Source of the DNA: Toxorhynchites rutilus septentrionalis
Taxonomy: Eukaryota > Arthropoda > Insecta > Diptera > Culicidae
DNA: 64,000 bases
Direction: 5' to 3'
NCBI RefSeq assembly: GCF_029784135.1
Contig: NC_073745.1
Span: 40,566,420 to 40,630,419 of the forward strand
The position numbers and the translations under genes were made by a program. The notes under the pieces are model-generated. The model ran no database searches and was not told the DNA's origin. It saw only the letters and a list, made by a program, of their open reading frames with translations. Positions 4,451 through 64,000 of this stretch are shown here, piece by piece. Numbering within the stretch: position 1 is the first letter of the stretch; every line of letters begins with the position of its first letter.

Positions 4451-6429
4451 TTGGGTTTAGTATCCAGTCTTTAAGTGTTGATTTATCATTAAGTTATCAA
4501 AATCACTTATTTTTTTCAGTCGAGTGTATAAGCATACTTCATATACGTTATGTTCCTGATGTTTCTAAAAACTGCAGATACAGACCACATTTACGGTATT
4601 TGAAGTCATGTCACGATCTATGAAGACACAAAAGTCATTTTCACACTATGCGTGATTGCTTATTTCACATCATTTAAACTACTAGATTGCAACTGCAAAA
4701 TGATATTTCTAGCTGAAAAAACATCGTACATCGTCCCTCAATTTGGAAGGCAAACGTACACTATGGCTCCATAAAAATGCGTTAATCAAACACCCAAATG
4801 TTGCCCTGAGGCACACGTCGTTGGATTTTTTTTTTTGTTCAATGACAATAAGGCGTAGAGGAAGACCGTTACTTCCGCAGTGTATATCCAATTAGTTAAT
4901 CAATCGGTCCGCTGCTAATCCGCAGTAACAAGCGGACATCCCATCGATTTGTATCGACTGTATAGACTGATCGTATCAATTTTTATAGACTGCAAATTAT
5001 TCTGTCATTCCGAACAATTTTGAGTGTGCAATAAAAATTATATTGATCAGCGGTACAGTATGAGATTATCCTTGAACTTTGAGTGACGCTGAGCTTTGCT
5101 CTGTTATTAGCGCATCCTCCTCTCATCACCATTATCATCCGTGAAAGAGGATGTCAAAATGAGGAAAGACGACGCGTGGCATAATTATTCGCACGCATCC
5201 GCTGAGTAAAGTTGGTTATTATTTTGGCCACACAGATAATCAGTTTTGAAGAAGTGCGTGCGAACACAGAAACTCTAAACCTCAGCATTGTTTACGCGAT
5301 TATTGGACATTCACGTTTTCTACCAATCAAACTGGGACAATATGTGGACACAGCTGTTCCATAAGAGCACGATTCGTTTATATACTCGTATGCGGGAGTA
5401 CCATTACCGGGTCACAGCTATCAATTAGCAAACTGATTATGCAAGCTGAATGGCTCGATGACCTCTCCCGGACCCCGCGTCATTTAATCTCGTGGCCTCG
5501 TTTTCATGTGAACTCGGGGCAGTATAACCGCCATTATTGTTATTATTATTTTAACGACACGATCATTTCCCTAACCACTCTATTCCGACATTTTTCTCTT
5601 CGCAAGAGAAACTGCTCACAGCCTCAATAACAACAACAACAAAAACAGTGCAGGGCGGTAAGGTTCATGGCACGGGTTCCTCTTACCATAAGTCATTAGA
5701 CGGTACACCGAGATTTTCCGTTTGCAAGCCTGCCTCCAACTGCGGCAGCTAAATGACAGTAACCTTATGCTTCAATCCAACGAAATCTAAATCATCAATT
5801 AGATTTGCATATTTGAGAACACGGTACCGCACGCTTTGGAGTGCACCATTGCTGACGCAGCAGAAAAGCGATAGTTTGTCATTAATTCTACCGCACTTGA
5901 CTGCCACACAACACTCGCGTTCGCGCTTGATCATGTTTGGAAAGCGTGCAGCGGAAAAAGAGTGGGTGAAACCCACGAACACCCTAATGGGACTTTCAGA
6001 ACGAGGAAATTGCAGAATGCAGCATGGTATTTCATAAGGTACACCGGGTCGAGTTTGAAACGGAAGGCTCAACTTCCTCCTCAAGTGATGAAGTGTTGTG
6101 ATTTAACCAAAAGTTCTACTAAACGAACCTGTTGACTGTCATAACCGGACGATTTATTTGTTTATTTTTAGTTGATCGTAAAATCAAACCGAACATGCCA
6201 TGATTGAATTGATTAAAAATAAAGATTTCCATCAGTTTTATCCTTGTAACTGCATATCAAGTAATGGTTAGGTTCTGATTAAATGTATTGATTTAAAAAA
6301 ATAATTTTCATCCGTAATTTTTATTCTAAAACTGTGTTTAGTCTATTTAAATTCTCAACACACTATCGAGTAGCCACAGTGAAGCTTACATTGCATTTTT
6401 TTTTCTCGAATCGCATTCAGGAGAAAAAC
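4451..6429. other. Unassigned intergenic sequence
   Basis: No recognisable gene or repeat. The part 4900-6090 is richer in GC than its surroundings and lacks the long A/T runs of the repeats. It holds open frames on both strands (for example 5749-6084 minus, 111 codons; 5753-6037 plus, 94 codons) that overlap each other and show no domain. It may be single-copy host sequence. Confidence 0.45.
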
Positions 6430-9871: not shown

Positions 9872-11317
9872 ATAGAACATATTAGAAATATAATATATTG
9901 TATATTAGATATAGAAAGATTATTTTTCATTCATTATTTTCATCTTGAAAGTGTGTTCATTCCACCTAAAAATCCATTATAGTCTTTGTAGCTTTAAAAA
10001 CTTGTGATAGAAAACTCAATGTCATCAATGGGAATTGACCTTCTCTCTCCAAAAACAAACATCTCCGCTTCGTCTGTGCTGCCGCTCCGTACTGAAAACC
10101 CGTTATGTCTGACAATATAAATATATCATGTATTTGTCGTCTCGTGCCAATACGTGTCTGATAAAACCGTGTTTGTTCTCTGTGTACAATATAATTCATA
10201 GAAAACCATCATTCCATTCAACAACAATCAACTTTTGCACAGAATGTTTGCACGGAGCTACGCGATTAGAGATATTTTCTATCGGATGATGCAAATATCT
10301 CGGCGAACTATCGAAAAATAGCGAAGCTTAATCGTGTATGACATATATGTCAGCCACTTTGGGTTCCTCTACAACAAATTACTGATGAAGAAAAATGTCG
10401 AAAACTATCAGCGCTTTTCATTTATTTGGTTCCATCCTCACTTTACGATTGAACTGCGTTACCAACTCGCACCAGACCGTCTCCATCCCACTTGAATATC
10501 GAGCACAATCTATAAACACCTTTGCTCCTATATTCCGTTTGAGGTGGGATCGAACCCCAGAACATGCAACAGTAAGATTTTCCTACTGGAATCAGGAAGC
10601 ATATTTTCATGAAAGATATGTTGTATTTGAATGAATCCTGTGTATGAACGTATTCCAAAATTCTGGATACTCTTCCATATCCGCACTTGCACAAAAATTT
10701 TCCGTATACTGCTGACACCTTCTTTGTCGCAGCACACTTTGATACAGAGAGCTTTCTCTTCTTCGAGGATGTGTAGTGAATGTGTTTCGCTGTATCTTTC
10801 ATTCATTCCATTCTTCTTTCGGACTGTGGGTATATGTGTGTGAAATCATTAGTAGGCATGAATGATGGCCGCTTGTTGTTTTATGCTTACTAGTTCGCTC
10901 GCAATTGTGGTTTCATTCCATTCCATTTTCGTTTTTAAGATGTTTTAAACTTCTTCAGTTCATTCGCCTCTAGCCCTGAAAAGGGCGCTTGTGGAAAGAA
11001 AGTCTACTCCATACTCCTCCTTCTTGAGGAAGACAATCCACTCCCGCTCGACGCTCACCGGCAACGATGTTGCATCAATGACCACCAAACGATAGAGTAA
11101 TGTGGTTTCAAATCGCGGATGGCTTCATACCAAATAAGTTGAAAACGGACAAAAACGAATATATCAGTTATTGATGGTACGGGTAGGAATAGCACACAAA
11201 TTGGTAGAACAAATGTAATTTCATGTACTTTCATCACACATTAATTTGAAACTGGAAGAATTCTCTTTGTATGATGAAAATACATGAAAATACATTGAAT
11301 ATACTGTTTAGGGAATA
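9872..11317. other. Unassigned intergenic sequence
   Basis: No gene recognised. Small overlapping open frames on both strands between 10395 and 10843 have no domain signature. At 10545-10562 the plus strand reads as the complement of a GGTTCGATCCC B box, a possible decayed SINE. A histone-type 3' stem-loop motif sits at 10973-10986 on the minus strand (listed separately). Confidence 0.4.
10973..10986 (-). other. Histone-mRNA-like 3' stem-loop motif
   Basis: On the minus strand the sequence reads GCCCTTTTCAGGGC: a five-base-pair stem around a TTTC loop, the core of the replication-dependent histone 3' stem-loop. The outermost canonical pair is mismatched (C opposite T). No histone coding frame was recognised upstream on that strand, so this may be chance or the stump of a histone pseudogene. 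Confidence 0.3.
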
Positions 11318-22560: not shown

Positions 22561-23587
22561 TTTGTAGAGTCTTATTGTAGCAAATTACGGGAACTACTGA
22601 AGGATCATATCTACACCCAAAATTGATTTTTAGCTCAAGTTTTGCCATCCCGATTCATTACATTAAATGTGCCTAAAATAACAGAAATGTCATGACTCTC
22701 AAATACTGGTAAGCATTTGTATAAAATATATGGCTCAGTAATATAATATTAATTCGAGCGAGCGAAACAAGAAAAACGTTGCAAAAAAACACGCATTACT
22801 TTGCCACATATGTACACGGCCCAGACTGAGATGGATATAGACCTCCTTTCCTCCTCTTCCTTTGTACTCTTAGAAAACACTTTCCAACTTTATTTTGTAA
22901 TGAGGTGTAATTTTATCTCACATTTAGAGCTCCCGCAGACTGCAGAGTTTTGTCGGCCAATAGATTGTTCGGACGACTTAATCAGTATGGAGCGATATGC
23001 ATATGCGCACACTACACCGATTCAGTACCGGCCGATAAAAAAGTTTGATAGGCTTCCCGATTGCATTCATACTATTCGGTCGGTCAACTATCGACCGTCC
23101 GTTTAATCAGTACTGATTAGCATCGATCTACGCACACACGACGATTGTTTATCGGCCTATAGTTCAATTTGCTTTCAATTCGGTCTCAATTTTGGCATCC
23201 GACATACGAGCCGCCCGAACCAATGGGATGCACCCAATGCTCTCTGAATCTCTTTTTAAATTTCCTTCGCCGTTTTCTCTTCCGTTGTCAACTGGGTTGC
23301 CAAAAATATTTTTTCAAAAAACTGGAAGATTGTTCTTAAAAAAAACTGGAAGAAAACTGGATCCTGAAAAACCGTCTTATTTTAAGAAGATCGGCTTAGA
23401 TTTATCTAAAATCATTCTTTTTATTTTCTTTAGGAGCCTTGTAGTTTGACTGAAGTTCATGGAATAACGAAATAAACCATTCATTATTCATATCATTCGA
23501 GCAGATCAAAATGACGTTTTCCGCCACTCGAATATTACTGTTAAACAATATTTGGGGAACTTCTTTTCCAGAAATGCTACAAAATGT

Positions 23588-23770
23588 ACAAGATTTTAAA
23601 CTTTAATGACTCTTTACCCGGCTGAAAGGAGTGGTATAATAATCACTTCATTCGAATGAAAAAATGTCAATGAGTTATTGGTCCAAAAATCATTTCAATA
23701 GCTTAAAAATTGCTTTGAAAACATGCTATTGGAATCATAACAATCTAGTTCATTGCTTTTCTGGTGATAC
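23588..23770 (+). repeat. Fragment of the H3-carrying TIR element family
   Basis: Matches 37330-37510 and 50160-50520: 'cacttcattcgaa', 'aaaatgtcaatgagttat' and the 'tttcaatagcttaaaaa' block, ending at 'catgctattggaatcataac'. The TIR end and the histone part are absent. Confidence 0.6.
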
Positions 23771-24553
23771 GGTTTGATTTAGGTAAAACTTGAAAAATCT
23801 CGTATTTTTTTCTCTATGTCCGTAAAATCGCTGATAGAATATCGTCGCAAAACTGATTGTCAATTTGATTAATTAAGTTGCATGGAGACACGGTTTCTGG
23901 TTATAGATCACTGTATCGAGCCTGACCTCAATCCTTTGTTCTTTTTCTACTAACGCGAATTTTGACCATCTTCATTGTAATATTTTTCGCACTCACGAAG
24001 ATTGCTAGAAAATGTTAAAGGTAAAAATTTTTCCTAAAAATAAACGAACAACATTTCTTCCATCAATAAATGCTAGGTCCAACTGACATTTTGGCAGGAA
24101 TTATTTGGAGGATTTTCAGTATTATTGATTTCAAAACTTCTCTAAACTTAATTATAATTAAATTTCATTAAAACAACTGAAAAGTACGAATTACACAAAT
24201 TACCACATTTATTTCATTCGAGTGCATTCAAAAAATAGAAAATCAGGATCAATGCATAACATTTGAATTAACATATTTCGGATGTCAGGCTTTATCAGGC
24301 GTATAGCAGAAATATAGATAATCTTTCTTGGGTGAAATTCTGGTTCGGCCAAAAAGGTAAATAAACAAAGCCCGAGTCACAAAAACGGTTGTGTTTTTTG
24401 ATCGGAGAAACATTTGACAGAAAATGCATGTGAAATAAGGTGCAAGAATTTGTAGGAACTTGAAAAATATATTTGATTGACTCCACATGGCCTAGATTAA
24501 TACCAATTCTTTGATAGAATATCTATTGTAACAAATACAAACTTTACATTCTT

Positions 24554-24682
24554 TTGTTTTTTTTATCCCATTTATTTATTTAAGGCTCATTAGCAATCTA
24601 GCTGTAACAGAGCCGAATTTTAATCGTGTACATGTCACATGGTTATCATATCTATAATTAGCACATTACACAGTTGCCATTC
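24554..24682 (-). mobile_element. 5'-truncated retroposon tail with 14-bp target duplication
   Basis: A 129-bp insertion flanked by AACTTTACATTCTT (24540-24553 and 24683-24696). It contains the last about 125 bp of SINE D or its partner LINE on the minus strand, with the poly(A) as a plus-strand T-run at about 24555-24564. Clear target-primed insertion. Confidence 0.8.
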
Positions 24683-25256
24683 AACTTTACATTCTTGCTC
24701 TTCTTCGTTTTTCCTGGCACACCATTTAATCTATTCGTACATTGTGTAGTTATATTTCAACACTTTTCGTAGCCAGTATACCTTTCATCATAATGTTTCT
24801 CAACCTGTTTCTATTCTTCGATCTGTCGAGTTTCATTCAGAAAAAGTTCTTTCCGCAGTTTACGCAGGGATAGCAAGGGTGAGTGAGGGATAATGTTTAT
24901 ACATTGTTAATTGATTTTACATAAAATAAGTAAAAATGAAGCCAAAATATTAAAAAAAAAACTGGATAATATTTGAAAAAAACTGGAAGATTTCAGGATT
25001 TGACTGTTTGACTGGAACGAGAGAAAAAAAAAACTGGAAGAATCCAGTTTAAACTGGAACATTGACAACGCCGGTTGTCAAACACAAATTAAATACAGTC
25101 TTTCCAGAATATTCGGCCGACAATTGGCTAGTATGCGCACACTTTGCCAACACGACTGTTTGGTTGGCTCGGTGTGCGCACTAGCAACCCAACCCGATCA
25201 AACTATCGGCTGGCAAAAGGCTGCAGTGTGCGGGGACTCTTACTCAACAGCATCAT

Positions 25257-25330
25257 TAGCTATGTGGATAGTGTGGCCGTGTAAAACATCCTTTGCATTC
25301 CAGTCGGCCTAGGTTCGATCCCCGTTGACG
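25257..25330 (+). repeat. tRNA-derived SINE head (family C), second copy
   Basis: TAGCTATGTGGATAGTG (25257-25273) and B box GGTTCGATCCC (25312-25322), same spacing as at 4188-4252, followed by a purine-rich tail around 25365-25390. Confidence 0.6.
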
Positions 25331-25520
25331 TCGTTTTGGCTTTTTTTGGGTGCAATCCCAAAAAAGATGAAGAAAGAAAAAAAAAGAGATGTCTGCTTCC
25401 ATACATACAAACATTTTAAAACGTTGGGAGACAGATGATTTTATTTGTTCATTTGACGCTTTAAGACACGAATATTTAGGCATGTTTTCTACCGAAAATG
25501 AAAATGTTTTCTGGCAACGC

Positions 25521-32026: not shown

Positions 32027-32755
32027 CGAGGGTCACTATTTATATTTCGGGAATTGGCAACACTGATGTGATGTGAGTCCATCTGACGGTTCCATCGTAA
32101 AGTTTGACATTTTTGACGATATACGTACTCAGAACATATTGTCATACGGACGCTATTTGTTTATTTTATATTTAGTTGAAAGTTTGGTCTCGGCAAAAAA
32201 ATGGAACTGAATCGTGAACATTTTCGTGCGATGATTTTTTACGACTTTCAACGTGGATTATCACAACAAGAGTGCGTCAATCAACTTAATTTGACTTTTG
32301 GCGATGAAGCTCCACCAAAAACCACTGTGTATCGCTGGTATAGTGAATTCAATCGTGGTCGTAGTTCGCTGTCCGACGAGTTTCGTGAAGGTCGTCCAAA
32401 ATCGACTGTAGTGCCAGAAAACATCGATGCTGTGCACGAAATGATTAAGCAAGATCGTCATGTAACCTATTGTGAGATTGAGGCATTCCTAAGCATTAGT
32501 TCCACCAGCATATATGCGATTTTACATGAACACTTAGTTGTGCGAAAATTATGTTCACGATGGATCCCACATAATTTGACAATCGCTCAAAAAAAAGGCT
32601 CGTGTCGATTGGAATAAATGCTTTGACAATTGGTTTAAGCGCATGCAAAAGTGTATCGATCATCGTGGCGAGTACTTTGAAAAACAATAAAAATATATTC
32701 GCAGCTTAACTATTTGTTTTTGTTCCTCTTCCCGAAATATAAATAGTGACCCTCG
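32027..32755 (+). mobile_element. Internally deleted mariner (729 bp)
   Basis: Terminal inverted repeats of about 26 bp (CGAGGGTCACTATTTATATT...) are identical at both ends and flanked by TA (32025-32026, 32756-32757). The perfect TIRs and TA mark a precise mariner insertion that still has transposase-binding ends and could be moved by a helper transposase. The internal part is a truncated transposase gene (next entry). Confidence 0.9.
32201..32692 (+). pseudogene. Mariner transposase, catalytic core deleted and frameshifted
   Basis: The start MELNREHFRAMIFYDF is the mariner N-terminus. Residues 1-130 retain the paired helix-turn-helix DNA-binding region, with the VYRWYSEFNRGRSSLSDEF and GRPKS linker motifs, up to SRWIPHNLTIAQKK. 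One extra A in the run at 32587-32595 shifts the frame. In the corrected frame the sequence goes straight from a RVDW motif to the family's C-terminus (FKRMQKCIDHRGEYFEK, stop near 32690). The whole DD34D catalytic domain, about 200 residues, is therefore missing. It cannot catalyse transposition; a DNA-binding fragment might be encoded if expressed. Confidence 0.9.
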
Positions 32756-34421: not shown

Positions 34422-35706
34422 ACGGGTGTTAAATAAAAAATGAGAATTTTTTCAATCACATATAAAAAAAATTTTTTTTTTCTTCGATTTCAGTATTTTT
34501 TATTGATAACATAATGTATTTTCTTCAAAAAAATGTCAGTGAATGTTTGAGTAAGGGCCGTGGTCTGCTGTTCGACACAACTTTGTCGCGATGCTCTCAC
34601 AAGAACGTTGTACGGCACTTACGTCCATTTTCCGGATACAATTCCGGATTCTTGTAGTTAGTTGCTTCGTGTCCTTGGCCCTCCAATTGTTTTTATACAC
34701 TAGGGCACTGAGTGAGCCAAAGAAATCCTCTATTGGGCGGCACTGGGGCAAGTTTGTTGGGTTACGATCTTTCGGCACGAACGGTATCTTTTTCTCCTCA
34801 AGATACGCCAGCGTCTTCTTGGCGTAATGGGAAGACGCCTTGTCCGGTCAGAAGACGTACTTCCCATCTGCGTGATCGTTCAGGAACGGCAGCAGGATTT
34901 TATCGAGGCACTCTTCTCGATAGATTTGTTGGTTGATTGCCAGACCGCTCGGCTTAAACCAAGGCTTTGAAATGCCCCGGTCGGAAATGGCGATGTACAA
35001 AATAACCTTTTTTTCAAACTTGTGCTTGAACTTGTATTTCACTTCAGGCGGCGTGGATGACTTGTCGCTGGAGTAGTAATTATCATTTCCTGGAATATGC
35101 GTTTTGGACAACGGAAAATAGCTTTCGTCGCCCAGAACGAAAGACGTCCCACGGTATTTTTTGGTCATCCACCGACACTGTGATTTAACCGTCTCAATCT
35201 GCTCCTCCGTGTACTCCGGCGACCTTGTCTTCTTCCTGCAGACGATTCCTTCCATCTTGAGGGTCCGATGGATCAATACGTGGGAGCAGCCATATTTCTG
35301 ACCGGCGTCACGCAGGCTGGTTGCGTCCTTGTTGTCAAACAGCTTCTTTAACGATGTCTTCCTCTGCTTCGTCATTATCGTCACCGGACGCCCACTTCCG
35401 ACCTTCCGCTCTTCGTTCAGGGAACCCAAGATACGATATACCGCACTGACAGGTACATTCTCTTCCTTAAAATGTGCCACCGTGAACTTTTTTCCTTGCT
35501 GGAAATGCGTTTCGTAGGACCGTACAATGCGTTCGCGGAGCACGTGCTGTTTCGATGCCATCTTTGCTTTGACTAAATTCAAACTAGCAAAACCAAACAC
35601 GCCTACTGTTTCTAGGGACCCCAAAAAGCGATTTTCTTGGAGAAAGAAAATTTTACGCTCTTTATTTGAGTTACTGAAAGGTATTGATTTTTTATTTAAC
35701 ACCCGT
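34422..35706 (-). mobile_element. ITmD37E transposon, near-intact (1285 bp)
   Basis: Terminal inverted repeats ACGGGTGTTAAATAAAAAAT (34422-34441) with an exact complement at 35687-35706, flanked by TA (34420-34421, 35707-35708). It contains one transposase gene on the minus strand broken only by a nonsense codon. ITmD37E elements are a Tc1/mariner-superfamily lineage best known from mosquitoes. Confidence 0.9.
34536..35561 (-). pseudogene. ITmD37E transposase with one in-frame stop
   Basis: A cut-and-paste transposase of about 341 codons. I choose the start MASKQHVLRERIVRSYETHF at 35561; the 47 upstream codons run into the terminal repeat. The N-terminal helix-turn-helix region contains VYRILGSLNEERKVGSGRP. 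The catalytic triad is preserved: D in VLGDESYFP, D in the PDKASSHY segment and E in RPIEDFFG, with 37 residues between the second D and the E (DD37E). The only lesion seen is TGA at 34848-34850, where the family has a tryptophan codon (GKYVF-stop-PDKAS); the frame then continues to a normal stop at 34536. The upstream open part therefore lacks the last two catalytic residues. One base from being open. Confidence 0.9.
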
Positions 35707-37251: not shown

Positions 37252-37510
37252 TGACGTAGGACTACGTCTTTCATATCTGTACTGGGGTGTAAGTTCAAAG
37301 TTTCGAAAACGCGAGAGTGACGCCGGAGTGCAAAGTTTTAAACGTTTAATACCTCTTTGTCGGCTGAGTGGAATTGTATGGCAATCGCTTTATTCGAAAA
37401 ACAAAATGTCAATGAGTTATATGATTGTTACGTATTGGTCCAAAAAATCGTTTCAATAGCTTAAAAAATGCTTCGAAAACAAGCTATTGAAATCATAACA
37501 ATCTAGCTCA
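37252..37510 (+). repeat. Left part of the H3-carrying TIR element family
   Basis: Starts with TGACGTAGGACTACGTCTTT, as at 50079, and follows that copy through GTTTCGAAAACG, the 'cacgccggag'-like block and 'caagctattgaaatca', then diverges just before the histone-derived part. No right end is visible nearby. Confidence 0.65.
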
Positions 37511-38368
37511 TTGATGATGTTTGCGTTTGTGGTAATGTGTTCCCGAACACGGACGCATAATCAAGGCACCTGAAGAAACCGTCATCGTCATGTGATTTGT
37601 TTCACTCGCTTGTAAATGCGCACATTCGGTTCCCGTGATGCAATCGTATCCAAGACCATCAATTTCTGTTCTGCTTCCGCGTGAAGTGATCATGAAAACT
37701 CTCGTGTATTATTATCGCGAGAACAAAATAAAATTATGTATCAAACTTCATCAGTTGCTTTTGCAAAACCACGCAAACCCAACGGTTCTTTTCTGGCCCA
37801 CCAAGTTCGAATTAGGTGAATTTCATGTTGATAACAATTTCATACTCATACTCATCCACTCACACACTAACAAGGAAAACTTTCAGAAATCTTTAGAAAT
37901 TTTCAGAATTTTTTTTTCTTTGAAAAAAATACTAGGGTAGGGCGGGGCTAGTTGGTCATTTTTGAATAAATTTGGCTATAACTTTGTAGTACGAAGTTTT
38001 GCGTTAGAATGTTTTGTACCAAAACGAAGCTTACCTTTTACCCTTTCAATGAAAAATAACCAGAGAATCAATTATTTGATTTTTTTCTTTTACTTAACGT
38101 ATTTATATTTCAGAATGAATTGACCAACTAACCCCACACACGGGGTAAGTTGGTCAATGATAGGCATGTTCTTTTTGAGCAAAAAATACGCGTTTTTCAT
38201 TAGAATTTTCCTTCATTATAAATTAATGAATTAAAACAAAACAAAAACAGTTCACTAATATCATGTAGCAAGTAAAAAAACAAATTAATGAAAATTTCAA
38301 ATCTTTGTTGGAAATTAGTCAGGCAATCTTTTCTAGCGACTTTGTCTCTCTTCCATTTTGAGGCGCAC
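37511..38368. other. Unassigned, with a MITE-like hairpin
   Basis: At 37934-37957 the sequence GGGTAGGGCGGGGCTAGTTG occurs, and at 38120-38157 a hairpin with 16-base arms (TTGACCAACTAACCCC against GGGGTAAGTTGGTCAA, one mismatch) repeats the GTTGGTCA word in both orientations. This suggests a decayed MITE, limits unclear. Confidence 0.45.
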
Positions 38369-41905: not shown

Positions 41906-43197
41906 AAGGGCGAACACGAAATTATTGCGACACATTCAACAGGGCATAACTTTTTTTACCATTGGGTAAAAATAAACCAAATTTTGCACACTTTCTCATT
42001 GATGTGTATTGTATACATGCTGTCAAACTCGAAGTCGTGTTTTTCGATTCAACGAAAATGGAGGTGAACGAACGCGAGTCGAGAGAACAAATTCTTTCCA
42101 AACACCTGGAATTTCCTGACCTGTCGCACCGGCAGTTGGGAAAAATGTTGAATATTCACCATTCAACCGTCCCCAGAGCGGTTCCAGGAGCGGTTGACGT
42201 TGGACCACGGCAAAGGAGCTGGAAGAAAGCCGTGACCAGAGAACAAAAAGACGGAGGGAAAGGTAAAGCGGATGATTGAAGCAAATCCCAACGTCTGCAG
42301 CCGTGATTTGGCTAAAAAGGTCGGCATGTCACAGAGCTACGTCCAGAATGCAAAGAAAAGAGCTGGACTACATACATACAAGGTACAGAACTTCCCAAAC
42401 CGCGATGAGCGGCAACAATCGACGGCTAAAACTCGGGCACGGAAGCTCTACGAGAAGATGCTGACAAAATATGGCTGCTGTGTGATGGACGACGAAACGT
42501 GTATAAAAGCCGATTTGAAGCAAATTCCGGGGTTGGAGTTTTTCACCGGCAAGAGCATGTTCGATGTGGACGACAAATTTAGGAAGAAGAAAATGTCGAA
42601 GTTCGCCTCCAAATATCTCGTTTGGCAGGCCATCTGCTCTTGCGGACTGAGGAGTGAGCCTTTCGTGACAAAGGGCACAGTAAATGGCGATATCTTCAAA
42701 TCTGAGTGCCTCGAGAAGCGCCTTTTGCCGTTCTTGCAGCAGCACGACGAAGCTCCGCTATTCTGGCCAGATTTGGCTGCATGCCACTATTCTAAAAGTG
42801 TCCTGGAGTGGTATGAGGCCAATCCTGTCCATTTTGTTCCAAAGGACATGAACCCGTCAAACTGTCCGGAGCTGCGCCCGGTGGAGCAGTACTGGGCAAT
42901 AATGAAGCGGGAACTTCGGAAGAGCAAGAAGACAGTCAAAGACGAGAAGGACATGTTAAGAAAATAGAAAAAAAAAACTGAGAAACTGGTACCGGATGAC
43001 ACTGTAAAGACTTTGATGGAGGGCATCAAGCGAAAATGCGTTCAATGTTACACTCTAGGCTCCATCGAATAACTTTTCTTTTGATTTTTGAAGTAAATAT
43101 ATGTATAAAACTATCCTAAAATTTTGGTTTGATTCTAAACATTATAAGAAAATTGGCATGACATTTTCGGTGTCGAAATAATTTCGTGTTCGCCCCT
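41906..43197 (+). mobile_element. ITmD37E-type transposon, second lineage (1292 bp)
   Basis: Terminal inverted repeats: left AAGGGCGAACACGAAATTAT, right in complement AGGGGCGAACACGAAATTAT, flanked by TA (41904-41905, 43198-43199). It carries a mutated transposase on the plus strand. Different in sequence from the element at 34.4 kb but of similar size and the same catalytic spacing. Confidence 0.88.
42058..43072 (+). pseudogene. DD37E transposase, one frameshift and two stops
   Basis: Start MEVNERESREQILSK (42058). The N-terminal helix-turn-helix includes LSHRQLGKMLNIHHSTV. A frameshift near 42165-42175 changes frame; the continuing frame has a stop near 42235, then a long open segment from 42272. 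The catalytic residues survive: D in VMDDETCIKAD, D in FWPDLAACHYS, and E in RPVEQYWAIMKREL, with 37 residues between the last two. A TAG at 42965-42967 replaces a codon in the LRK-stop-KKKTEKL stretch; the same frame then runs to the family C-terminus and stops at 43070-43072. At least three lesions, so inactive. Confidence 0.9.
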
Positions 43198-49513: not shown

Positions 49514-50326
49514 TCTTCTTGGATGGCACCAACGTTCCAGTGAAAATTTTGCCTCCTCAACGTATCATTACTTGCGTCTTTTTTATTAAATAGTACAGGT
49601 CGGACTCGATTATATATGAGACGATTATATACAACTTTGGACTCGATTGTATATAGATAATATTTTTTTTCATATTTCAAAATTGACTTATTTCTAGCAA
49701 AACTTTAACCTTTCAACGTTAAGGAGAAATTTAAGTGGCTGTTACATGTACAGTGGGGTTGAAATCGTGATGTTTGATGATTTTGCTTGAATTTTCACCA
49801 GAAATGGTTTATTTCGATATTGCAGCCAAATTAAGATGTTCAGATGTTCCACTACTATATCCTGTACTCAATTTTCTCATCTTTCAAATGAAATCAACAA
49901 AATCGTCTTCCGTAGCGTACTTTTTGATGTAGAGCCAGTTTGAGGCAACAGAGTCCGAAACAAAAAAAAAGTTCTATAACTCGGTCATTGTTGAAAATCG
50001 AACATATGCGTAGGAGAATTTCTTTCATCAAACAGGATCGTCTATCACTTTCTGAGAGAATCTGGATAACTTTATTTTTGACGTAGGACTACGTCTTTTA
50101 TTTCTATACCGGGGTGTAAAATCAAAGTTTCGAAAACGAAAGCGTTACGCCGGAGACCGAGGTTTTGAGTGTTAATAGTTCTTAAACAACTGAACGAAAT
50201 GATATGATAAACACTTCATTCGAAAGATAAAATGTCTACGCGTTATATACTTGTTACTTTTTCATCCAAAAACTTGTTTCAATGTCTTAAAATGCCTTAA
50301 AATTGCCAATGCCAATGTCTTAAAAT

Positions 50327-50479
50327 CTCGAGTAAACCGCGAGTAATCGGTTTTCCACCTTACTAACCATAGTGCTAGGAAAATTATTTATGTATAGTTT
50401 TAAAACATATATTTAAGAATTCGGCTCCTTTAAACTAATGTAACTGAGCCTGTAAAAATAAACGATTTATATAAAAAAA
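50327..50479 (+). mobile_element. 5'-truncated non-LTR tail with 13-bp target duplication
   Basis: Flanked by AATGTCTTAAAAT (50314-50326 and 50480-50492). The 153-bp insert matches the 3' UTR end of the element at 61.48-61.65 kb (ACCGCGAGTAATCGGTTT..., GAGCCTGTAAAAATAAACG) and ends in A-run. A clean target-primed insertion and the innermost level of the nest. Confidence 0.85.
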
Positions 50480-50533
50480 AATGTCTTAAAATGCCTTAAT
50501 TGCTTAAAAGAAGCTATTGAAATCACCAGTCGG

Positions 50534-50568
50534 TATATAAGCGAGCGCCGCTCGTAAACCCACTCAGT
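50534..50568 (+). promoter_or_regulatory. TATA box plus arthropod initiator
   Basis: TATATAA at 50534-50540 and TCAGT at 50564-50568 put the initiator A about 31 bp after the TATA start, the standard insect core-promoter geometry. It lies upstream of the H3-derived sequence and probably descends from a histone gene promoter. Activity is unknown. Confidence 0.5.
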
Positions 50569-50629
50569 TATAATTGAACAGCGATAGAAGCATGTTGTCG
50601 CTGTTGTGATGAAGCTATCTTCGTATATC

Positions 50630-50843
50630 TTCACCGAATTGCTGATCCGCAAGCCACCTTTGCAGCATTTGGTTCGTGGAATTTCTCAGTACATCAAAAC
50701 CGACTCGCGCTTCCAAAGTTCCGCGGTTATGACGCTGCAGGAGGCCTATTCAAAGATACCAATTTGTGTGCTATCCATGTAAAACGCGTCACATCATGCC
50801 CAAGGACATTCAGCTGACCCGTCGAATCCAAGGAGAGCGTGCT
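50630..50843 (+). pseudogene. Histone H3 pseudogene (C-terminal part)
   Basis: Encodes a diverged H3 alpha-N/core segment from [18 protein letters not shown] through [12 protein letters not shown] (H3 residues about 58-95). It then lacks about 8 codons (residues 96-103), resumes in another frame as [15 protein letters not shown] (about 104-118), loses one base, and ends in the third frame as MPKDIQLTRRIQGERA (120-135). The N-terminal tail and first helix are absent. H3 is nearly invariant, so the many changes (L65P, F67L, R69H, E73G and others) show decay without selection. It is part of the TIR element 50079-52009. Confidence 0.85.
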
Positions 50844-50867
50844 ATATTAGCTTATCATATAATCAAC

Positions 50868-50883
50868 GGCCCTTTCCAGCGCT
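50868..50883 (+). other. Degenerate histone 3' stem-loop
   Basis: GGCCCTTTCCAGCGCT lies about 25 bp after the H3 C-terminus, preceded by ATCAAC. It differs from the canonical GGCCCTTTTCAGGGCC at three positions. Its placement confirms that the source was a replication-dependent histone gene copied from DNA with its 3' processing signal. Confidence 0.65.
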
Positions 50884-50984
50884 CCAAATTTGATGGATTA
50901 GAGTTCAGAAAAGTTTTTTACAGGCCGAACTGAAAGGAATATTTCCGTTTGGATGCCATTCAGCATCGAGAAAATTCCGGAAAG

Positions 50985-51850
50985 ATCTAATCGTTGCTGA
51001 AAAATAATCTGCCAGTTCCCCTGGAAATTGAAAAATACATTCATGTAAAAGAGTTTATTTTAATGTTTTCTAACCATATTTTGACACAGCGACCAAATAA
51101 TTTGATTTCGTAATTTTTCAATCAAGTGTAATTAGCTGGAAAGCCTCTGAAGATTATTGTATTGTATTGTACTATTGTATATTGTATGCGCGCGCAACGG
51201 AAAATGTTTCGTATCGCGAAAATTATATAATTTTCAATCGATTATTGCTCAGTCGCCGAAAGTTTCAAACTCAGAGAGTTCATTTCCCTCCAGTTTGCCT
51301 TCCAAATTGCCATCGTAAACCACACCTTCTTTCGATTCAATCACGCACGAAAAGCATACTTAAGCGATATTCTGGTGGTGAAACCCATTCATTTTTCGTG
51401 AGGACATCGACAAGACAACATCGTTACTGAACGAGCTGAACGAGCTGGACGGCGAGGGATCGAGGGATTCATTACCTGGCCTGACCTGACCTGAAATGCA
51501 ATCAGTTTATTTTAACTGCGCAGAAAAGCCGATCGATCAGAAGGAGAAGGGAAGGTGACCAAGAGAGTATCAGCATCGAAAAACGGTTCCCCGGGAAGAC
51601 ATCGAAGTAGCCGCCACACACACATACACGCGTGCAACTCTTTTCTGGTTATCGAGAAGAAACCTGGAAAAAAGTGATCGTTGCTGAAAAATAATCTGCA
51701 AGTTCCCCTTGAAATTAAAAATTACATTCAAGCGAGTTTATTTTAATGTTTTCTGTCCATATAATACTGCGACCACATGTATTTGGATTTGTGATTTGTC
51801 AATCAAGTGCAGTTAGCAGGAAAGCTTCCGAAGATTATTCTTCAGAACAA
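50985..51850 (+). repeat. Direct duplication inside the H3-carrying element
   Basis: The segment 50985-51150 (with GATCGTTGCTGAAAAATAAT-like start and GAGTTTATTTTAATGTTTTC) is repeated at 51677-51850, about 690 bp later, in the same orientation. The intervening 51160-51676 has GAACGAGCTG and CCTGACCTGA short tandem repeats and no recognised gene. Confidence 0.65.
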
Positions 51851-52392
51851 GGTTTTTTGTATCCAATATTGAATGCATAAAACCTTGAGCCTCCAACGTA
51901 ACGCTCTCGTTTTCGAAGTCCCCCTAATATTTATTTATTCATTCATTCAGAATGGATTTAGATTCAACTTCAAACAAATGATCTCTAAATCAACGATAGT
52001 TCTACGTCACCCTTGCGGTTATATCATAGATATAACCCACTTCCTGTTTTTTTCACGTGAGAAATTCAAATTTTTCTTTTTTATTCAAAAAACGAATAAT
52101 ATATGCATAAAAAAACGAATAAGAAAAAACAATTTTTTTGACTCGATTATATACAGTGAAATGAAATCAGAGACTGTAAATAATCGAGTCCGCGCTGTAG
52201 TACTTGGTTGAGATTTCTATGCCGAATAACACGTCTTGAATTTATGCGGGAGTGGCAAGCTCTAGAATACGCGTGACCACAGTGCAAACCGGAAGAATTT
52301 TAATTGACGAAAAATCCCCCGGCCAGACCGGGAATCAAACCCGAACCCCCAGCATGATAGTGTGGGACGCTAACCACTCGGCTACGGGAGTC

Positions 52393-52874
52393 AAGTCACT
52401 ATTATTAATTTATTATTGAATTTAATTAGTTTTTTTTTTAAACAGTATATTTCAATTGTTTTTTTTTCCTGTGTTAAATAGACTACACTCCAATATAATC
52501 CACTCCAATATCTCCAATATCTAACAACTTTTTTTTACTAAAAATGGAAATAAAAATCGAAAAACATTGTTAATTGCACGAGAAAAATTATGAGATTCAA
52601 TATATTGAAGAAAATGTCATTAATTTTGATACGTTTTAACAAAAAAAAATAAAAGCTTTGAATTGAGGTATATTTTTTTTAATAATAACCCTTTGCGGTC
52701 GTAATAAATTTAGAAAAGGGTGTCGTATTAGTCGGATTTTTTTTTACTTGAAAAAGTAGTGATGTGTAACTTTGTGAGATTGCGAAAGATGAAAAATATG
52801 TTTTTTTTTGTAAACTTTAGATAAGTTTTTACGGAACAGTGTATTTTAATATATTATTTTCAACAGAAAATATA
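52393..52874. other. Unassigned AT-rich sequence
   Basis: Long A and T runs, nothing recognised. Confidence 0.5.
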
Positions 52875-61189: not shown

Positions 61190-61481
61190 CTAGCTGACCC
61201 GACAAATTTCATTATTTTTTGTTATCAATACCTTCAAACATTCGAGTTTTCTTACTATGAGCAAGATCATGTGTACAATCGCAGAACTGTTCATTGGTTG
61301 ATTTTCTAATCGACCCCGTTGAATTTACTTATAACTATAAAATTCCTTGTATTTTTAACAAAACTCAATATTATAATATCAGATTATTTTCAGACACAAT
61401 TCTCGTTCAAGATTTTTCAACCACTTGCAAATAACATGTTTCTCCGTTACATGGATTAAACGTTTTATGCAGAAAATATGA
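61190..61481 (+). repeat. R1 repeat, interrupted by the retrotransposon
   Basis: Starts CTAGCTGACCCGACAAAT and matches the complement of 2640-2923 block by block. It is cut at 61481 by the poly(A) end of the non-LTR element, so R1 is the older insertion. Confidence 0.75.
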
Positions 61482-64000
61482 TTTTTTTTTTTATTAATCC
61501 GTTTATTTTTACAGGCTCACTTACATAAGTTTAATGGAGCCAAACTCTTACATATATTTCAACTAGCATATATCAACATGTTGTTTCCTTAATTCTATGG
61601 TTAATGAAATAGGAAACCGATTACTCGCGGTCGACCCGAGTTTAGAAGGATGACACATTTTCATTAGGAAAAGGATGGGATGTAAGGAGATGTGTGTTTA
61701 CACTCGCACTCACATTCACATTCACATTCTCATTCACACTGACACTTCACACTCAATTCTTAAAACTATCCTTACATCTAATATGTATTTACAATTTAAC
61801 TTATTCTAATGTTAGTAGGAAGGGAACCGATAGCTCGCGAAGGACGAAAAGGATGTATGAACAATCACACTCGAAGATCGATAGCTTTAAGGAAAACATA
61901 TATTTGGGACATGTAATCAAGGTCTAACCGAGCCAACATATCTCTCACCGGCACATTGGGCTGCTTTCCTCGAGCCCAAAGGGAGTTTTCTAAATTCGAT
62001 CTGGCGACAAGATACAACTCGCACGACCAAACAACGTGTTCGATGTCGTGGTAACCATGGCCACAACCGCAGAGATTGCTGTCGGCAAGATTAAAACGAA
62101 AAAGCAGCGCGTCTAACGAACAGTGATTGGACATGAATCGGGAGAAGGTGCGAATAAAGTCCCGACTCAAGTCCAGACTTTTGAACCACGGATTGAGGCT
62201 AACCTTAGGGATAATTGAGTGGAGCCACCGGCCCAATTCATCTTCGTTCCATTTGCGTTGCCAGTTAACGATGGTATTTTTACGAACTAAAGAATAAAAT
62301 TCATTGAAGGCGATTTGACGCTGATAAATTTCGCCTTCAATTGCACCTACCTTTGCTAATGAGTCAGCCCTCTCATTACCCGGAATTGAGCAATGTGAAG
62401 GGACCCAGACAAAGGTAATGACATAACAGCGTCTGGATAAAGCACTCAAAATTTCTCGTATTCTCTCAAGGAAGTACGGCGAGTGCTTTTCCGGCCTCAC
62501 TGAACGGATAGCTTCGACAGAGCTCAGACTATCCGTTACAATGTAATAGTGTTCAACAGGTCGTGAGGCGACGCTGTCCAGCGCCCAGTGTATTGCTGCC
62601 AATTCAGCAATGTACACTGAGCAAGGATACTGAAGACTGTGTGAGGTGCTAAAAAATTTGTTGAACACTCCAAATCCTGTGGACTCATTCATAGAGGACC
62701 CATCAGTAAAGTACATATTATCACAATTGACACGCCCATGCTTTGCTTCGAAAGTCGTAGGAACGATCCCCGATCGATGATAATCTGGAATTCCATGGAT
62801 ATCCTGCTTCATGGACAGATCAAAATGCACAGAGGAATTGATGTAGTCAGGGAAACAAACACGGTTGGGAATATACGAAGAAGGATCAACCTGCATGGAG
62901 ACGAATTCATGATATGAGCTCATGAATCCAGAATGAAAATTTAGCTCGATCAGCTGCTCATAATTTCTGATCACCAATGGATTCATAACCTTACACCGGA
63001 TGAGGAACCGAAGAGATAATAAATTGAAGCGAACTTTTAGTGGGAGTACGCCTGCCAAAATCTCGAGACTCATGGTATGCGTTGAGGGCATACATCCCAA
63101 CGCAATACGGAGACAAAGATACTGAATTCGCTCGAGTTTAATGAGGTGTGTTTTGGCAGCTGATTGAAAACAGAAACTGCCATACTCCATCACTGAGAGA
63201 ATAGTTGTTCGATACAACATTATAAGATCTTCTGGGTGGGCTCCCCACCAGGTGCCGGTAATTGTACGGAGAAAGTTTATTCTTTGTTGGCATTTTTTAC
63301 TCAGATACCTAATATGGGCCCCCCAAGTACATTTGGAGTCGAACCAGACCCCAAGATACTTGAATGACATAGCATGAGTGATCGGTTTACCCAAAAGTTG
63401 AAGCTTTGGTTTTGCTGGTCTATGCTTCCTAGAAAAAACCACCATCTCTGTTTTCTCCGTGGAGAATTCGATCCCTAGACCAATGGCCCAGGCTGAAAAA
63501 TTGTTCAAAGTATCTTGTAAGGGTCCTTGCAGGTCGGATTCGTTTGATCCTACGACAGACACCACTCCATCATCTGCAAGTTGTCTTAGGCTGCAATTTT
63601 GTGTAAGGCAATTGTCGATGTCGCTTACATAGAAGTTGTACAAAAGGGGGCTTAAACATGAGCCCTGGGGGAGTCCCATGTAGGAGACCCGAATTACTGT
63701 CGAATCCCCGTGAGAAAAATTCAAATGTTTCTCACAAAGCAAGTTATATAACGTATTATTCAATAGAGGCGGCAGACCCCGAGAGTGTAATTTGTCTGAC
63801 AGGACCTCTATTGAAACTAAATCAAAAGCCCCCTTCATGTCCAAGAATACTGAAGCCATTTGTTTTTTTTCGGCGTAAGCCATTTGAATTTCTGAAGAAA
63901 GCAACGCAAGACAATCATTCGTCCCCTTGCCCCTGCGGAACCCATATTGTGTATCTGAGAGTAGGCCATTCGTTTCAACCCAACGATCAAGGCGAAACAA
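61482..64000 (-). mobile_element. I-superfamily non-LTR retrotransposon, 3' portion
   Basis: Runs leftward from beyond the window edge to a poly(A) tract (plus-strand T-run 61482-61492). The 3' UTR (61493-61864) contains short CACATT/CATTCA tandem repeats at about 61700-61750 and ends in GAGCCTGTAAAAATAAACGG. Shorter copies of the same tail lie at 43575, 47026-47330 and 50327-50479, so the family has been active repeatedly. The 5' part and target duplication lie outside the window. Confidence 0.9.
61865..64000 (-). CDS. Non-LTR retrotransposon ORF2 (RT-RNase H), partial at 5' end
   Basis: Continuous open frame of 711 codons entering from the window edge, with no stop or frameshift. Reverse transcriptase: template-binding FRRGKGTNDCLALL (residues 21-34), catalytic D in VFLDMKGAFD (D54), GLPQGSCLSPLLYNFY (109-124) and LADD (141-144, in place of the usual YADD). 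RNase H: D433 in YFTDGSS, E466 in IAELAAIHWAL, D490 in VTDSLSS, and VPSHCSIPGNERAD (533-546). The C-terminal zinc-like motif is CGCGHGYHDIEHVVWSC (644-660). RT joined to RNase H is typical of the I superfamily (I, Loner, LOA relatives). The protein would copy the element's RNA at a nicked genomic target. The endonuclease half and ORF1 must lie outside the window. All visible catalytic residues are present, so the copy may be young. Confidence 0.92.
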   Translation of the reverse strand: MFRLDRWVETNGLLSDTQYGFRRGKGTNDCLALLSSEIQMAYAEKKQMASVFLDMKGAFDLVSIEVLSDKLHSRGLPPLLNNTLYNLLCEKHLNFSHGDSTVIRVSYMGLPQGSCLSPLLYNFYVSDIDNCLTQNCSLRQLADDGVVSVVGSNESDLQGPLQDTLNNFSAWAIGLGIEFSTEKTEMVVFSRKHRPAKPKLQLLGKPITHAMSFKYLGVWFDSKCTWGAHIRYLSKKCQQRINFLRTITGTWWGAHPEDLIMLYRTTILSVMEYGSFCFQSAAKTHLIKLERIQYLCLRIALGCMPSTHTMSLEILAGVLPLKVRFNLLSLRFLIRCKVMNPLVIRNYEQLIELNFHSGFMSSYHEFVSMQVDPSSYIPNRVCFPDYINSSVHFDLSMKQDIHGIPDYHRSGIVPTTFEAKHGRVNCDNMYFTDGSSMNESTGFGVFNKFFSTSHSLQYPCSVYIAELAAIHWALDSVASRPVEHYYIVTDSLSSVEAIRSVRPEKHSPYFLERIREILSALSRRCYVITFVWVPSHCSIPGNERADSLAKVGAIEGEIYQRQIAFNEFYSLVRKNTIVNWQRKWNEDELGRWLHSIIPKVSLNPWFKSLDLSRDFIRTFSRFMSNHCSLDALLFRFNLADSNLCGCGHGYHDIEHVVWSCELYLVARSNLENSLWARGKQPNVPVRDMLARLDLDYMSQIYVFLKAIDLRV

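Follow-up and report, generated by a model that had tools for sequence, protein, structure and literature searches.

Histone H3 DNA in a Helentron-type element and a candidate histone 3'-end signal behind Helentron Rep/helicase frames in the mosquito Toxorhynchites rutilus septentrionalis

We consider a repeat of the mosquito Toxorhynchites rutilus septentrionalis that carries the remains of a histone H3 gene, together with the elements that may move it. The account as a whole, which we hold to be probable, is that the repeat is a non-autonomous Helentron-type element (HINE) with a passenger H3 doubled in an inverted repeat, that it is moved by Helentrons, and that the Rep message of these Helentrons is processed by SLBP and U7. 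Somewhat less firmly, yet with the balance in its favor, the sequences suggest that mosquito Helentrons took over the histone 3'-end signal (stem-loop plus U7-type box) for their Rep/helicase message, which would confine the replicase to S phase and leave the message without poly(A); the capture of histone DNA by HINEs would then be a by-product. The window, by which we mean the whole stretch of 64,000 nucleotides that was analysed, lies on a 345-Mb contig of the 902.6-Mb genome. The features of the element in the window are the following.

50079..52046 (+): non-autonomous Helentron-type element (HINE), an internal-deletion derivative of a 3.4-kb form, with boundaries read from 17 left and 20 right ends
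50079..50095 (+): 5' terminus with the palindromic subTIR GACGTAGGACTACGTC, its anatomy matching that in the accessible part of PMC4067079
50301..50479 (+): retroposon 3' tail of 179 bp inserted in the window copy, missing from the full element (L010)
50520..50629 (+): stretch containing TATA and Inr sequences, the element's own left part, also in copies without H3
50633..50843 (+): histone H3 pseudogene (tblastn), codons 59-136, with a deletion at 95-102 and a frameshift at 119/120, lesions common to other copies
50864..50887 (+): degenerate histone 3' stem-loop, 20 of 24 positions against an insect consensus
50965..51158 (+): internal repeat unit, the first of two in the window copy (three in the full element)
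51651..51839 (+): second copy of the internal repeat unit, 80% identical
51997..52009 (+): 3' subTIR TAGTTCTACGTCA, lying 37 bp in from the 3' end; the "right TIR" of the preliminary description
52017..52037 (+): 3' palindrome GGTTATATCATAGATATAACC, ending 9 nt short of the 3' end

We begin with the boundaries of this element, which the preliminary description had read as a MITE-like transposon between terminal inverted repeats (TIRs). The hallmarks of HINEs, as given in the accessible part of PMC4067079, are palindromic subTIRs of 12-15 bp, set ~2-4 nt in from the 5' end and ~38-60 bp in from the 3' end, a palindrome ~8-35 bp from the 3' end, and T-rich targets entered without target modification; the same source notes that some DINE-like elements were once annotated as MITEs. 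T runs lie on both sides of the window element, GACGTAGGACTACGTC stands directly behind one of them, the 3' subTIR lies 37 bp from the final G of CTG (more if the T run is counted to the element, as in the accessible part of PMC4067079), and GGTTATATCATAGATATAACC is found 9 nt from the end. The inverted motifs TGACGTAG...CTACGTCA are present, as is an inner inverted repeat (50129-50166 / 51880-51917). The window and 20 fetched loci yield 20 readable right ends from 19 of the 21 sequences (none from L019 and L024, two from L029), and at all 20 the motif CTACGTCA, which occupies 52002-52009 in the window copy, is internal: 37 further shared bases lead to ...CCCACTTnCTG before the flanks diverge. 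The 3' end of the window copy is at 52046. Between 2 and 7 T precede GACGTAG at all 17 left ends read and 5-9 T follow 19 of the 20 right ends, the remaining one reading TGTTTTT; no target site duplication is seen by eye in any of the 14 elements with both ends. In its anatomy the stretch 50079-52046 matches a HINE rather than a TIR transposon. The preliminary description had itself held that the element call fails if the TIRs do not bound the repeat, and since the right one does not, the call fails on those terms. The retroposon tail within the element is flanked by a 20-bp target duplication (50281-50300 / 50480-50499). The stretch 51159-51650 was considered as a second H3 unit, and its similarity is not above that of shuffles.

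The C-terminal half of H3, reported earlier from the letters alone, is indeed there. The tblastn blocks cover residues 59-96, 103-123 and 120-136 (combined E=3e-20), and a frameshift-aware alignment gives 56 of 69 aligned codons identical. The degenerate stem-loop that had been noted downstream also stands: CAACGGCCCTTTCCAGCGCTCCAA begins twenty bases past the last H3 codon of the window copy and agrees at 20 of the 24 positions of an insect histone stem-loop consensus, with 0.016 such sites expected by chance per window on both strands. Rfam gives no histone match in the window, either here or at the second stem-loop described below (37780). The form CTTTTCAGGGCT of the stem-loop occurs in 18 of the 27 H3 arms examined, some of which end before that site. 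As for the TATA/initiator pair claimed upstream, the sequences exist (TATA and TCAGT at ~50533 and ~50564, by eye), but they are ruled out as the promoter of H3 because the stretch GGTATATAAGC that holds them is found in all five fetched loci without H3 (L022-L026), and in 16 of the 21 sequences overall. The deletion junction of the window copy lies at 50629/50633 and joins element position 551 to H3 codon 59. Histone coding remnants were sought in 37500-37790, 50890-52009 and 23700-24300. Eleven of 12 comparisons do not rise above shuffles; the remaining one (H4 in 50890-52009) scores 31 against a maximum of 29 in just six shuffles and is discounted. An H1 candidate in the element (best E=0.03) was not accepted.

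The genome search that the preliminary description had proposed, with 50079-52009 as the query, gives at least 124 match rows, 40 of 7,792 candidates being scored. Twenty copies were fetched by choice, not at random, and copy numbers are lower bounds. H3 matches are found at 15 of the 20 chosen loci, so the H3 segment is not a local insertion; the five loci without it were picked for their short shape (~1.6 kb in the four with both ends). The full element in L010 is 3,406 bp long. Its two divergent H3 genes form an inverted repeat, 90.5% identical over 1,173 alignment columns, each arm having a 5' spacer, codons ~4 to 136, the stem-loop GGCCCTTTTCAGGGCT and ~60 bp past it. Because the arms hold these ~60 bp, which are missing from mature histone mRNA, the captured H3 is genomic DNA rather than a copy of an mRNA, taken up by a mobile repeat that multiplied it. 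The conclusion of the preliminary description thus survives, but its argument, the order of promoter, coding part and stem-loop, is a by-product of the internal deletion.

Of the 23 H3 arms that cover codons 95-102, 22 have exactly the same deletion and one differs from it by a single substitution. For the frameshift at 119/120, 20 of 24 arms agree exactly, and in four the shortened frame persists alongside additional changes. Since both arms, like the copies examined, carry these main lesions, H3 was already dead when it was doubled and spread; it was a passenger, and its disabling lesions predate the amplification. No intact H3 is seen. Over 0.9 kb, 20 sequences differ by 2-5% from their consensus. 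The stem-loops of the H3 element reach 23.9-25.2 bits with Rfam Histone3, under the cut-off, and AAAGAG is absent from the 50-base string tested after the stem-loop. Four loci (L018, L019, L023, L029) show nested or tandem arrangements, with elements beside or inside copies of the same family at T runs; in L019, for example, the element sits right after an H3 stem-loop region.

Two related partial copies in the window had been described as lacking the histone part as far as they extend.

37252..37900 (+): second HINE subfamily with the same 5' end, 77% identical over the left 215 bp, 3' end missing
37780..37803 (+): histone-like 3' stem-loop of this subfamily, 21 of 24 positions, not reported by Rfam
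23588..23775 (+): fragment of the left end of a third copy, with approximate limits

For the fragment at 23588 this is correct as far as the stem-loop is concerned, the top score in 23501-25500 being 15/24. It does not hold for the copy at 37252, whose stem-loop at 37780 is the top score of the window (21/24), with no such site in 2.1e8 simulated positions. The genome search with this subfamily gives at least 74 match rows, with scores for 40 of 4,813 candidates, and its right end is seen in L036 and L037. The stem-loop is kept with variation in six of eight aligned subfamily rows, the window copy counted; the remaining two are without this stretch and have a related right end. Rfam reports nothing at the matching place in L030-L035.

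A search of the genome for the Helitron_like_N (Rep) domain gives 132 matches. By the motif that separates the two groups (accessible part of PMC4067079), L043-L047 have the Helentron form RGSPH, L042 has the Helitron form RGLPH, and the other loci have neither. In L048 and L049, open frames of 1,564 and 1,674 aa, counted stop to stop, each match Helitron_like_N, PIF1 helicase and a C-terminal endonuclease in one frame and contain RGSPH, the combination expected of a Helentron; the endonuclease score is 24.2 bits in L048, just under the 24.5 of Pfam, and 31.0 bits, over it, in L049. The two proteins are 67% identical over 1,549 aa. The last 126 bp of L048 are 81% identical to the end of the H3 element (E=6e-30), and because of this terminus the L048 family is the best candidate for the machinery of that element. 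The likeness is limited to the 3' terminus, and 81% lies below the 84-99.9% identity of the two mite HINE/Helentron pairs in the accessible part of PMC4067079. No 5' terminus with a matching subTIR is found in the 10 kb of either L048 or L049, which may start further upstream or be degenerate at the 5' end. Among viral and other genome contigs no Helentron relative is confirmed, and the element patterns are absent from viral and prokaryote contigs; a 17-mer match in a viral contig (L001) has nothing else alike by eye.

It is behind these frames that a histone stem-loop reappears. In both L048 and L049 it lies on the sense strand between the Rep frame and the 3' end, and ten further 3' regions have it in six cases and lack it in four (L053, L057, L058, L059). 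These four have no matching element end either, and may be interrupted, fragmentary or of another type. The copies with the stem-loop fall into family A (L048, L050, L051, L056), family B (L049, L052) and family C (L054, L055, which are tied to Rep matches 4.4 kb upstream by position only). Because the members of a family are near-identical or close relatives, the eight copies are taken as three observations.

The stems read GGTTCT/AGGACC in A, GGTTCT/AGAACC in B and GGCTCT/AGAGCC in C, with a compensatory pair change, judged by eye, between the last two. In one representative of each family, AAAGAG starts 14 nt past the stem, a candidate for the purine-rich downstream element with which U7 pairs. 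Rfam Histone3 (RF00032, cut-off 34 bits) scores family B at 40.5 bits (L049, L052) and family C at 38.1 (L054, L055); family A stays below at 22.9 bits in three copies, and L056, with a stem mismatch, is not reported. The proteins of the three families are 65-71% identical to one another, and in each of the three comparisons of their 3'UTRs the terminus and the stem-loop block match best, the distance from stem-loop to 3' end varying from ~150 to ~260 nt. AATAAA/ATTAAA motifs occur in family B at +363 and +571, with the stem-loop at +476; there is none in A past its stop and none in C within the 320 bp examined. In a weak control of two Rep loci without RGSPH, whose 3' ends are not located, L042/L061 with the Helitron motif (4.5 kb downstream of L042 covered) and L038/L060 with neither motif reach 16/24 and give no Histone3 match.

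The histone stem-loop of metazoans is the binding site of SLBP, U7 snRNA pairs with the box that follows it, and processing by this route gives a cleaved mRNA that has no poly(A) and is limited to S phase. If the signal behind the Helentron frames works in the same way, the SLBP/U7 machinery would cleave the Rep/helicase pre-mRNA downstream of the stem-loop and so yield a Rep message without poly(A) that is restricted to S phase, and the output of replicase would coincide with the replication of the host. The Helentron proteins would move the H3 element as well. How histone DNA came to be captured is a guess: copying may have run on beyond the 3' end, or switched template at histone loci undergoing replication. 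Our odds for the mechanism rest on the comparison of the three families, and repeated histone capture in the group (H3, possibly H2A, and the histone fragments of Culex) agrees with it.

The stem-loops behind the Helentron frames might instead be inert leftovers of captured histone genes with no part in RNA processing, a reading that we consider unlikely though it deserves real weight. The same group carries H3, H2A pseudogenes beside such repeats and, in Culex, histone fragments, and four of the ten further 3' regions have no stem-loop. Leftovers ought to decay, however, as the H3 arms have, whereas the stem, loop, flanks and AAAGAG spacing are kept in three families whose proteins are only 65-71% identical and most of whose other 3'UTR has diverged; moreover, L048-L061 contain no histone coding sequence at E<=0.01 except H2A in the flank of L051.

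We find it a good deal less probable that the stem-loop has its role at the DNA level, forming a hairpin that starts or ends the rolling circle, and resembles the histone signal incidentally. Its site near the 3' end of a rolling-circle element would suit such a hairpin, and Helentrons do have a 3' hairpin (accessible part of PMC4067079), but that place is already taken in this element by the terminal palindrome. A DNA hairpin would also leave aside the conserved loop and flanks that Rfam Histone3 scores, the position of AAAGAG outside the hairpin, and the variable distance to the 3' end. Most improbable of all, to the point that we give it hardly any weight, is the capture of an H3 gene by a MITE-like TIR element: the inverted TGACGTAG motifs and the inner inverted repeat speak for it, but the internal position of the right motif at every right end read, the T-run targets, the lack of target duplications and the 3' palindrome all speak against it. 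We thus retain a HINE with passenger H3 and a histone-type signal, probably functional in RNA, on the Rep message of the Helentrons.

The closest known case is Helentron-Cq-32A of Culex quinquefasciatus, which has histone gene fragments with frameshifts in eight copies; its authors regarded such capture as undocumented in other organisms (PMC4067079, accessible part). The two have in common a mosquito element, amplified histone pieces, palindromic subTIRs, a 3' stem-loop (the terminal palindrome) and a TT target. Unlike the Culex fragments, the H3 of the HINE described here is nearly whole and doubled in inverted orientation, H3 being present in the window and at 15 of the 20 loci fetched. Two findings go beyond that case: a second HINE subfamily has a histone-like stem-loop, and in autonomous-type Helentrons the histone 3' signal follows the Rep frame. 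The accessible part of PMC4067079 describes no histone 3' processing signal for Helentron-Cq-32A. A literature search, mostly without subscription papers, found nothing that joins Helitron and SLBP, and no other Helentron-histone paper besides PMC4067079 among the matches listed.

The element has the structural hallmarks of HINE / DINE-1 elements and differs from them in carrying host gene DNA and in resembling its Helentron, at 81%, in the 3' terminus only. A histone hairpin defines another group, the eight Tm1-HH DNA transposons of Meloidogyne incognita, for which a host origin was suggested; they belong, however, to the Mutator/Foldback superfamily, have a 9-bp target duplication and no histone coding part described, and the transposase-encoding Tm1-A is a class separate from the hairpin-bearing Tm1-HH (PMC3169594, accessible part). 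Pack-TIRs are likewise DNA transposons with pieces of host genes in animals but, unlike the H3 element, they are TIR elements, and the accessible part of the survey has none in its insect genomes (PMC8277862). With RF00032, the 3' end of replication-dependent histone mRNA, the Helentron signal shares stem, loop and flanks, B and C lying above the cut-off; it differs in following the Rep/helicase frame of a transposon where RF00032 follows a histone gene, and in family A it falls below the cut-off.

A second mosquito with an H3-carrying family and nearby H2A pseudogenes suggests a lasting link between Helentrons and histones. If the Rep/helicase message does end in the histone manner, this would offer a testable answer to how rolling-circle transposons are timed to host replication; a non-histone class would then join the metazoan mRNAs that end in the histone stem-loop.

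Several further observations concern histone-like pieces near these elements. Beside the Helentron copy L051, minus-strand pieces at L051:1101-1240 and L051:752-798 comprise a degenerate H2A gene with its 5' leader and a stem-loop with an A run behind it (GGCGCTTTTCAGGGCC...CCAAAAAA; Histone3 23.9 bits, below the cut-off). The latter abuts the 3' end of this Helentron, which seems to have entered the T/A run that follows a histone stem-loop, and a similar 3' piece (20.1 bits) flanks L052. An H2A pseudogene (L005:314-524, minus strand) is found ~1 kb from an H3 element, and a right end like that of family C, CTACGTCAACAATGCGGTCGTA, at L005:1246; this is possibly a HINE that captured H2A. In the window, a histone-stem-loop-like site, CAAGCGCCCTTTTCAGGGCTAGAG, is located at 10991 on the minus strand (19/24; 0.12 expected per window by chance).

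Other repeats are also seen in the window. Remnants of Mariner/Tc1-like transposases lie at 32201-32617 (match to the Mos1 HTH) and 42272-42967 (match to a DDE domain), and a third at 34848-35702 is recognized by eye, with no Pfam match. A tRNA-like stretch at 52310-52400 (CCGGGAATCAAACCCGAACCCCC...GGCTACGGGAGTC, by eye) is perhaps a tRNA-derived SINE; the only tRNA that ARAGORN gives in the window is a tRNA-Arg at 5543-5638 on the minus strand. On the minus strand at 61481-64000 there is an I/Jockey-type LINE with RT and RNase H, its frame matched over 70% of its length at 92% by a Toxorhynchites rutilus septentrionalis protein, and the retroposon tail at 50301-50479 resembles (76%) the DNA just past this frame.
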